Positions 58,305-61,500 of a stretch of 64,000 nt of DNA are shown in pieces. The translations under genes were made by a program, and so were the position numbers. The notes beneath the pieces are model-generated. The model saw nothing but the letters and a program-made list of their open reading frames with translations, was not told where the DNA came from and made no database searches. Each line of letters opens with the position of its first letter. Within the stretch, counting starts at the first letter, position 1. Source of the DNA: Weissella hellenica (GTDB taxonomy: Bacteria; Bacillota; Bacilli; Lactobacillales; Lactobacillaceae); NCBI RefSeq assembly GCF_005405545.1, contig NZ_BJEG01000013.1:1-64000 (forward strand), given 5' to 3'.

Positions 58305-58346
58305 AAAAAGTCGAGGAACAAATAATGATGTTCTTCGACTTTTTTA
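58305..58346 (+). terminator. Terminator after the deoxynucleoside kinase gene
   Basis: Arms AAAAAGTCGAGGAACA/TGTTCTTCGACTTTTT with one G-U pair and an 8-nt loop, then TTTATT. Confidence 0.92.
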
Positions 58347-58354
58347 TTGCTTAA

Positions 58355-59761
58355 TTATTTAAAATTATATACCCCAACAAAGTCGGGCAAAATTTCAGAA
58401 TCAGCCAGCGACATAACCCGTGCTTGTTGACCAGGTTGTGCAGCAATGACGTATTGACCGTTACCAATATAAATAGCCACTTGCCAAGATGCACCATGAC
58501 CACCCCAGAATAGTAAATCTCCAGGTTGTGCAATTTGCATAACATCAATGCTTGATTGTACATCAGATGTTGTCATATGTGCTTCTTGGGCAATCGTATA
58601 GCTTGGAATATAAACCCCTGCTTCATGGTATGCGCTAGCAGTTAGACCAGAAGCATCTAAACCAGCTGTTGTTTTACCACCCCATACATAGGGAATTTGT
58701 TGTTCAGCAAAACTTTTAGCAGCAGAAACAATACTTGACCGTTGATCAGCTGTCAATGCCGTCGCTGTTTTAGTTTGGGTGATTGCTTTTGTATCATTAT
58801 CATCTTGCGCAACAACGCTACTATTATCTTGAGCGACCGTTGCATCTAATGAATTTAACACAACATCTCCATTAGACATAGTTGTTGCTGCAGGCGCCTG
58901 TTTTGGTGCAGCAACGCCTAACGACTTAACAGTTAACTTATCATCTGAATTATCAACAGTAGCTGCTTGCATCCTAAGGGTTGTGTCATCATATGATTGT
59001 TGTACAGGTTCACTTGCAACTGATGGATCAGTAACATTATCGTTAGAATATGTTGTTGTAGCATCAATACTTTGTGCTGCTTGGTCCGTGTATTCTTGAT
59101 CCGGCACTGCAGACGCTGGTTCAACAGTTGTATCGACATAGCCACCATTAGGTATTGAAAGTGATTGTCCAATACTTAACATGGTTGTGTCCGCATTTGG
59201 ATTAGCAGCTTGTAACGCATCAATTGAAACACCATTATTGGCAGCAACCGTCGCTAATGTATCACCGTCTTGAATCGTGTAAGATGACGTCGCAACAGCA
59301 TCCGTAGCATCTGATTCAGCAACCACTGCATCTTCTGCAGGTGTCGTTGGTTGCTGAATATCTGTTTCTGCTGTTGTTGAATCATCATAATATGATGCTG
59401 ATTCTGCTGTGGCGTCTGATTGTGAATTTGATGCACTAATAGCATCCGTCATTGCTTTAGACGCAACCGTATTAAGGTTACTTTTCGGTGATTTTACCTG
59501 CTTGGTTCCCTCTTTAAACGTTGCTAATTTTGCATCCTTTGTGTGCTTTTCACGAAGAATATCTGATTTCATCGTTACTTGACTAGATTTCTCATGAATA
59601 AATGTTGCGACATTAGAAAATCTCCCAACTTGTTTTTCATTGGATGTGACATTAATAGCTGTATTAACAGCTGCTTTTACATCAGGGATTTGTGTTGTCG
59701 CCACAACTCCTGCTGCACCAGCAATACCAGTGAAAAACAACTTAGTTGAAGCCTTTACCAT
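58355..59761 (-). CDS. Secreted LysM-NlpC/P60 protein with a degenerate active site
   Basis: This 468-aa exported protein has a signal peptide (about 1-30), a Ser/Thr/Ala/Asp-rich linker, one LysM domain (about 160-210, YTIQDGDTLATVAANNGVSI) and a C-terminal NlpC/P60 domain (about 345-468). The fold landmarks are present (PYVWGGKT, PGDLLFWGG, VAIYIGNGQY). The catalytic Cys of the D-C-S-G motif is Ala (GLDASGLT, Ala370), the active-site His before VAIY is Gln427, and the third polar residue is Ala440. It should bind peptidoglycan but not cut it. GGAG lies 10 nt before the ATG at 59761. Confidence 0.88.
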   Translation of the reverse strand: MVKASTKLFFTGIAGAAGVVATTQIPDVKAAVNTAINVTSNEKQVGRFSNVATFIHEKSSQVTMKSDILREKHTKDAKLATFKEGTKQVKSPKSNLNTVASKAMTDAISASNSQSDATAESASYYDDSTTAETDIQQPTTPAEDAVVAESDATDAVATSSYTIQDGDTLATVAANNGVSIDALQAANPNADTTMLSIGQSLSIPNGGYVDTTVEPASAVPDQEYTDQAAQSIDATTTYSNDNVTDPSVASEPVQQSYDDTTLRMQAATVDNSDDKLTVKSLGVAAPKQAPAATTMSNGDVVLNSLDATVAQDNSSVVAQDDNDTKAITQTKTATALTADQRSSIVSAAKSFAEQQIPYVWGGKTTAGLDASGLTASAYHEAGVYIPSYTIAQEAHMTTSDVQSSIDVMQIAQPGDLLFWGGHGASWQVAIYIGNGQYVIAAQPGQQARVMSLADSEILPDFVGVYNFK

Positions 59762-59881
59762 AGGTCCAACTCCTCTCAAATTATACTTGTTAAAAGTTAA
59801 CCTAAATACACATTCCCCAATTTATATTTAAATTGAACTTAACATTTATATCATACCTTATATTTATCTAAATTTTTAGGG

Positions 59882-59988: not shown

Positions 59989-61500
59989 TTAATTCTCATT
60001 TAAAGGAAAAAGGCGAGTCGCTTTTACAGCGCGTTGCCATCCCTTGTATGCTTTTTGTACTTGATTACGCTGTTCAGTATTTGGCTGTTTAACTTCCAAA
60101 TTATTTGATGCTGGCAAATTAGTCAAATCTGACCAGAAGCCCACGCCCAAACCTGCCAAATAAGCAGCACCTAATGCTGTTGTTTCTAATTGCTGTGGTC
60201 GTTTTACCGGCTGATTAATTAAATCTGCTTGGAATTGATGAATATAATCATTTGCAGCGGCACCGCCATCAATAACAAGATTCGTGACTTCAATGCTAGT
60301 GTCATCTTGCATGGCTTCTAAGACATCACGTGTTTGATACGCTATTGATTCTAGCGTAGCACGCACCAAGTCACCTTTGGTCGTTGAACGAGTTAACCCA
60401 AACATAGCACCTCTAGCATTTTGATCCCAATAAGGTGCCCCTAATCCCGTAAATGCCGGTACCAAATAAATTGGCGCAATGTGTTGTTCTCGCGCAATTG
60501 TCGCAATTTGTGCAGTTTCTTTAGCACTCTTAATTAGTTGTAATCCATCTTTAAGCCATTGAATTGCAGCACCAGCTATAAAGACTGATCCTTCTAAAGC
60601 ATAAGTTACTTGACCGTCAATACTATAAGCAATCGTTGTTAAGAGACCATTTGTTGAGCGTGCAATATCTTGTCCTGTATTCATCACAATAAACGAGCCA
60701 GTACCATACGTATTTTTAACATCACCTTTATTGAACGCCTGATGACCGATTAATGCTGCTTGTTGATCACCAGCAATACCTGCTACTGGCACTTGCAATC
60801 CGAAAAAAGCATACTCAGCAGTATAGCCAAAGATTCCTGCAGAATCTCGTACTTCCGGTAACAAAGATGCTGGAATGTTAAATTCAGCTAATAGATCTTT
60901 ATCCCATTCTTTAGTATGAATATTAAATAACATCGTTCTTGAGGCATTAGAATAATCAGTTGCATGAACCTGCCCATTGGTTAATTTATATAATAACCAA
61001 GTATCAACTGTACCAAACAGTAGTTCCCCCTTTTCTGCCCGCTCACGAGCACCAGGAACGTTAGCTAGTAACCACATTATTTTAGTTGCTGAAAAGTAAG
61101 CATCAATCCATAAACCAGTTTTTTCATAAATATAACTAGTTAGTCCCTTTTCTTGCAATTTTTCAGCAATTTTGTCACTTTGCTTAGACTGCCATACAAC
61201 CGCCGGGGCAATAGGCTCACCTGTTTGTCGATCCCAAATAATGGTCGTCTCACGCTGATTAGTTAGTCCAATACTGACAACTTTATATGGTGGTATATTA
61301 GCCTGTATAACTACCTGTGCAATAAGTTGCCGGGCATCGTTCCAAATAGTCATTGCATCATGTTCTACCCAACCAGGATGATTAAAAATTTGTGGCAACT
61401 CCTTTTGTGCAGTTGCAACTACTTGCCCTTGTGCATCAAACAACATGGCACGCGTACTTGTTGTTCCTTGATCAAGTGCCATTACATATTGATCAGTCAT
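59989..61500 (-). CDS. glpK: Glycerol kinase
   Basis: GlpK phosphorylates glycerol to sn-glycerol 3-phosphate. The 503 residues show the FGGY signatures (start YVMALDQGTTSTRAMLFD, NQRETTIIWDR, GAPYWDQNARGAMFGLTR, and the C-terminal DGGAAANDY). GGGAG precedes the ATG. No glpF or glpO neighbour is present, so the gene stands alone. No clear cre site was found upstream. Confidence 0.97.
   Translation of the reverse strand: MTDQYVMALDQGTTSTRAMLFDAQGQVVATAQKELPQIFNHPGWVEHDAMTIWNDARQLIAQVVIQANIPPYKVVSIGLTNQRETTIIWDRQTGEPIAPAVVWQSKQSDKIAEKLQEKGLTSYIYEKTGLWIDAYFSATKIMWLLANVPGARERAEKGELLFGTVDTWLLYKLTNGQVHATDYSNASRTMLFNIHTKEWDKDLLAEFNIPASLLPEVRDSAGIFGYTAEYAFFGLQVPVAGIAGDQQAALIGHQAFNKGDVKNTYGTGSFIVMNTGQDIARSTNGLLTTIAYSIDGQVTYALEGSVFIAGAAIQWLKDGLQLIKSAKETAQIATIAREQHIAPIYLVPAFTGLGAPYWDQNARGAMFGLTRSTTKGDLVRATLESIAYQTRDVLEAMQDDTSIEVTNLVIDGGAAANDYIHQFQADLINQPVKRPQQLETTALGAAYLAGLGVGFWSDLTNLPASNNLEVKQPNTEQRNQVQKAYKGWQRAVKATRLFPLNEN

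Follow-up and report, generated by a model that had tools for sequence, protein, structure and literature searches.

A putative LysM-anchored pseudo-endopeptidase of Weissella and the stepwise loss of its NlpC/P60 catalytic residues

The window, i.e., the whole stretch of 64,000 nucleotides of Weissella hellenica DNA analyzed here, encodes a LysM-NlpC/P60 protein in which the catalytic Cys and His are both replaced. Is this protein still an endopeptidase and, if it is not, how did its dead domain arise and why does it persist? The origin of dead NlpC/P60 domains is usually seen as an end state, whereas here living intermediates are found at one syntenic locus in a genus of food bacteria. The gene and its signals were mapped as follows.

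58355..59761, minus strand: coding sequence of the LysM-NlpC/P60 pseudoenzyme, 468 aa, ATG start (open reading frame)
59770..59774, minus strand: ribosome-binding site AGGAG, 8 nt upstream of the ATG (read directly)
59672..59761, minus strand: signal-peptide-like N-terminus, residues 1-30, MVKASTKLFFTGIAGAAGVVATTQIPDVKA (cleavage site placed by eye)
59150..59281, minus strand: LysM domain, residues 161-204 (Pfam PF01476, E 3.4e-10)
58397..58693, minus strand: NlpC/P60 domain, residues 357-455, catalytic residues lost (Pfam PF00877, E 3.8e-17)
58305..58344, no strand assigned: palindromic hairpin resembling a terminator, AAAAAGTCGAGGAAC...GTTCTTCGACTTTTT, separating the pseudoenzyme gene from the convergent kinase gene

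Both domains exceed their Pfam cut-offs (62.6 vs. 23 bits for PF00877 and 40.1 vs. 20.9 bits for PF01476). The NlpC/P60 domain forms the end of the protein, with no repeats C-terminal to it, and the signal region is common to orthologues of every C-terminal type. The LysM domain, the signal region, and the ribosome-binding site had been noticed in an earlier account made from the letters of the window (hereafter, the sequence-only reading), and all three are present.

The positions of the active site were assigned by gapless alignment to the domain of Enterococcus faecium SagA, an enzyme that cleaves muropeptides and has the triad C443/H494/H506 (PMC6483599).

58652..58654, minus strand: catalytic Cys position, GCT = Ala370, in D-A-S-G (codon comparison)
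58481..58483, minus strand: catalytic His position, CAA = Gln427 (codon comparison)
58445..58447, minus strand: third position (SagA His506), ATT = Ile439 (gapless SagA alignment)
58682..58684, minus strand: Trp360, the retained equivalent of the SagA substrate clamp W433 (SagA alignment)

The replacements of Cys and His had been located exactly, down to the codon, by the sequence-only reading. Its broader claim that all three catalytic residues are lost stands for these two, whereas the third had been placed at an Ala (58442-58444) that proves to be Ala440, one residue off from Ile439, with which SagA His506 aligns. The loss at this third position is also older and by itself not diagnostic, since Ala is found there in the intact Cys-His relatives of the genus; it further occurs in 6 of the 35 homologues outside the clade. 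The argument that a single sequencing error is no explanation was borne out, because the same GCT and CAA codons are present in an independent genome (G011), and Gln occupies the His position in four further ones; thus, sequencing error is rejected. A Cys/His pair elsewhere in the protein that would rebuild the site was looked for as well, and this displaced active site was ruled out, as there is no cysteine at all among the 468 residues. Without a thiol, the protein cannot cleave by the NlpC/P60 mechanism, and changing the catalytic Cys to Ala inactivates SagA (PMC6483599); from the sequence, we safely infer that the window protein has lost endopeptidase activity. The automatic annotation of the gene as an endopeptidase is wrong.

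The remainder of the domain is well preserved. Outside the clade, 29 columns are conserved in at least 90% of 35 homologues; the window protein deviates at only four of them, and these include both catalytic columns, more than expected by chance (Fisher p = 0.015). The other two deviating residues, Pro441 and Val447, are near the third position in sequence, and 25 of the 27 non-catalytic conserved columns are retained, as are the core motifs PYVWGGK, D-x-SGL, QPGDLLFWG, and AIYIG. The AlphaFold2 model of the domain (38 homologues; pLDDT 93.9, pTM 0.90) predicts that the papain-like NlpC/P60 fold is intact. Its best fold match is SagA (6B8C; Z 19.9, rmsd 1.4, 40% identity), followed by other NlpC/P60 proteins; RipD of Mycobacterium tuberculosis (4JXB) matches with Z 15.9 and rmsd 1.9 over 115 residues. 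Both W433, the substrate clamp (PMC6483599), and W462 are important groove aromatics in SagA; the latter corresponds to Tyr388 in the window protein. In G011 the clamp residue is lost, the equivalent of Trp360 being Ser.

The pseudoenzyme gene is located between the genes for deoxynucleoside kinase (dNK) and glycerol kinase (glpK), and the order of its neighbors (deoxynucleoside kinase, MscL, HAD, GlpK, tautomerase, and YitT) is alike across most of the genus. Proteins encoded between dNK and glpK were therefore treated as orthologues regardless of differences in their C-terminal part. The window protein shares 84% identity with its W. sagaensis counterpart and 55% with the one from W. paramesenteroides. 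The genome has three GlpK-like genes, among them the neighboring glycerol kinase gene (window 59989-61500). No phage-like genes were found in the neighborhood, which leaves the suggestion of a phage surface protein in the sequence-only reading with nothing to point to around the gene, and a defence gene was ruled out, as there was no PADLOC match. The orthologue in G003 (L232:5308-6659) is split into two frames, one with the LysM part and one with the NlpC part, and the genome G004 (L231), which is 66% complete and has almost all genes of the region frameshifted, is unfit for gene calls.

Collecting orthologues, as the sequence-only reading had proposed, was done at this locus and revealed that the loss of the active site is common to orthologues in other genomes. 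The Cys, His, and third positions are occupied by Cys/His/Ala in the W. confusa group (L035, G023) and G008, by Cys/Gln/Ile in W. paramesenteroides (G018), G013, and G024, by Ser/Gln/Ile in W. sagaensis (G022), and by Ala/Gln/Ile in G011 and the window. At the codon level, His is encoded by CAC or CAT in the W. confusa group and G008, whereas the Cys position reads TGT in the W. paramesenteroides group and TCT in W. sagaensis; TGT, TCT, and GCT form a path of single-base changes through Ser. A tree of five neighboring genes joined the six species having Gln with full support and placed the W. confusa group beside them, and the same six-species clade was obtained in the glycerol kinase tree. 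Taken together, the trees and codons indicate that His was replaced by Gln first, on the stem of the six species, and that Cys was lost later, in a three-species sub-clade. Within the latter, Ala at the Cys position may have arisen twice, or Ser may have reverted in W. sagaensis.

Two further groups of orthologues lack parts of the site. In G001 and G025 the PYVWGG stretch is missing, and Ala and Asn occupy the Cys and His positions, respectively; in G002, G017, G005, and G015 the D-C-S-G stretch is missing, and Gln substitutes for His. Both deletion groups have kept the glpK locus and the signal region, and both are apart from the clade of the window in the two trees. The presence of Cys and His in G008, the W. 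confusa group, and other Lactobacillaceae suggests that this state is ancestral; if it is ancestral to the NlpC-bearing species, the distribution suggests that the NlpC/P60 site was inactivated at least three times in the genus. In six other genomes, a similar N-terminus and LysM are followed by a CAP domain as the C-terminal domain, which was identified by Pfam PF00188 in G007, G010, and G019 and by sequence pattern in G016, G012, and G009. On the direction of the exchange between CAP and NlpC, the trees differ: the CAP species are nested in the concatenated tree and basal in the GlpK tree with outgroups, neither placement being strongly supported.

L226:178-1404, strand not given: CAP-type orthologue at the glpK locus (PF00188)
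L227:3978-5138, strand not given: CAP-type orthologue at the glpK locus (PF00188)
L228:3782-5167, strand not given: CAP-type orthologue at the glpK locus (PF00188)

Selection on the NlpC domain was estimated as pairwise dN/dS by the Nei-Gojobori method, in which high dS makes several of the values rough. Pairs with Cys and His gave 0.045-0.047, well-diverged pairs with Cys and Gln gave 0.06-0.09 (and the closely related G013/G024 gave 0.14), and pairs lacking Cys gave 0.18-0.21. Constraint in the Cys-less clade is 2.3-3.4-fold weaker than in the Cys/Gln clade and 4-5-fold weaker than in the Cys/His group; between the latter two, the difference is not significant. The ratio reached 1 in none of 2000 bootstraps. 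Neighboring genes have dN/dS of 0.01-0.04 in all groups, and since they are steady, the relaxation in the domain is not genome-wide. In the closest pairs of both deletion lineages, no part of the protein is better conserved than the dead domain, with 87% identity vs. 60% before it in G001/G025 (dS saturated) and 91% vs. 64% in G002/G017 (dN/dS 0.03). A dead domain that is held so tightly must do something; in the clade of the window itself, slow decay fits too.

The genome of the window contains only two NlpC/P60 domains. The second protein (180 aa; L195:9619-10161, G000:C21) has no visible signal peptide and carries Thr in place of the catalytic Cys as well as the His. With both domains dead, the genome is without an intact NlpC/P60 enzyme, and compensation by another NlpC/P60 protein was ruled out, as the only other copy is dead as well. 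Two CHAP proteins and two M23 proteins are kept; one of the former is a LysM-CHAP protein that retains the motifs QCTWFVKG and YGHVAVVD. Compensation by extra CHAP genes was also ruled out, since their number is no higher where the site was lost (2-4 in the clade vs. 3-4 in the W. confusa group). In a domain census of the genus, to which the empty genome G012 was added, an NlpC/P60 domain having Cys and His together was missing from approximately 11 of 28 genomes. Some Weissella species therefore live without any intact NlpC/P60 enzyme.

The second dead protein belongs to a family with relatives in 22 of the 28 genomes of the genus, all of them lacking Cys and His and having diverse replacements, with dN/dS of 0.03-0.09 in the pairs tested. 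It probably represents a cytosolic pseudoenzyme spread over the whole genus, and is arguably a stranger case than the main finding. In genomes where both families were mapped, its gene is located directly downstream of a CHAP gene. In the protein from the window's genome, residues 1-25 (MPFKIEPGRVIHFNDYEVIDAEILF, L195:9619-9700) resemble the start of the next gene (MNFTYEPGRLFHETDGIVGAEILF, L195:10197-10280), which encodes a GNAT-like acetyltransferase.

The absence of Cys, the intact predicted fold, purifying selection, and the loss of the site in orthologues favor a secreted, wall-associated pseudoenzyme, as the sequence-only reading had proposed. More specifically, with a probability of approximately 0.68, the product would be an inactive, secreted, LysM-anchored pseudo-endopeptidase that serves, like RipD, as a non-catalytic wall-binding or adaptor protein. 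Its ancestor at the same locus would have been a Cys-His NlpC/P60 protein, in which the catalytic His was replaced by Gln in the ancestor of the six-species clade, and the Cys was lost afterwards in the sub-clade of the window. Most likely, the dead domain still recognizes peptidoglycan stems, or else another wall or protein partner, and would act in this together with LysM. A more sweeping version is tentative and has, in our view, well below an even chance: the C-terminal module would be a non-catalytic recognition domain for which cutting was never essential, whose site was shed at least three times in the genus under selection, and which is interchangeable with CAP.

We regard it as unlikely that the domain is simply vestigial, with the N-terminus and LysM still useful and NlpC/P60 drifting after its job was lost, to be lost itself or replaced. 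The increase in dN/dS of the domain, which is 0.05 with the catalytic residues present and about 0.2 with them lost, is what drift would produce, and so are the higher constraint on LysM than on the NlpC domain in the window genome and G011 (0.107 vs. 0.207), the replacement of the module by CAP, the absence of the gene in G020 and its breakage in G021 (L192:9438-10200), and the lost Trp clamp of G011, which would equally suit slow decay. However, dN/dS far below 1, the kept core motifs, and the high-confidence fold model argue against it, as does the conservation of the dead domain in the two other dead lineages. A negative regulator or decoy, which would occupy stem peptides or bind a hydrolase and thereby shield the wall from CHAP or amidase enzymes, is improbable: the genome does have the two CHAP proteins, among them the LysM-CHAP protein with both motifs, and the groove aromatics are kept in the window protein, but no hydrolase gene adjoins it in the window, and one groove residue is lost in G011. 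Scarcely probable at all is an enzyme with altered chemistry based on Ser371, the gained His379 and His395, or a metal. These two His residues occur in all three Cys-less species but in none of the Cys-bearing orthologues, and the domain of the Cys/Gln intermediates is strongly constrained, yet the protein has no thiol and Gln in place of the catalytic His, and Ser371 is the conserved Ser of D-C-S-G that Cys-His relatives have as well. His422 is not new either; it is present in all Cys-His orthologues compared, which means that it is no replacement.

The preferred reading, a non-catalytic wall-binding or adaptor protein, has precedents of differing closeness. Nothing direct on Weissella NlpC/P60 proteins or NlpC pseudoenzymes was found in a literature search that was not exhaustive, and within the same limits we found no precedent for a setting with LysM, for such a stepwise series, or for recurrent loss and CAP exchange at one locus. 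The Cys/His, Cys/Gln, Ser/Gln, and Ala/Gln series, with the orthologues as natural controls, makes the timing of catalytic loss and the role of the dead domain testable. The nearest such controls, the orthologues of the W. confusa group (L035, G023) and G008, share the locus, the domain order, and a similar signal region, but differ in having kept Cys and His and in the dN/dS of the domain (0.045 vs. about 0.2). SagA (6B8C) is the closest solved protein in both fold and sequence, with the Trp clamp and the groove aromatic retained in the window protein; it differs in its active C443/H494/H506 triad, compared with Ala/Gln/Ile, and the window protein carries LysM in its N-terminal part. Dead NlpC/P60 domains as a kind are already known from RipD (Rv1566c; PDB 4JXB/4LJ1), for which a review gives the catalytic site Ala83-Ser132-Glu144 and describes a non-catalytic, peptidoglycan-binding protein (PMC12067865). 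RipD resembles the window protein in having an NlpC/P60 domain with Ala for the catalytic Cys and with the His lost, the latter being replaced by Ser in RipD and by Gln in the window protein. RipD carries C-terminal pentapeptide repeats, whereas the window protein carries LysM. The window protein is not a member of the RipD model NF033743 (42.8 bits vs. a cut-off of 215). RipD belongs to another phylum, its loss was independent, and the peptidoglycan binding described for it is, for the window protein, a putative property.
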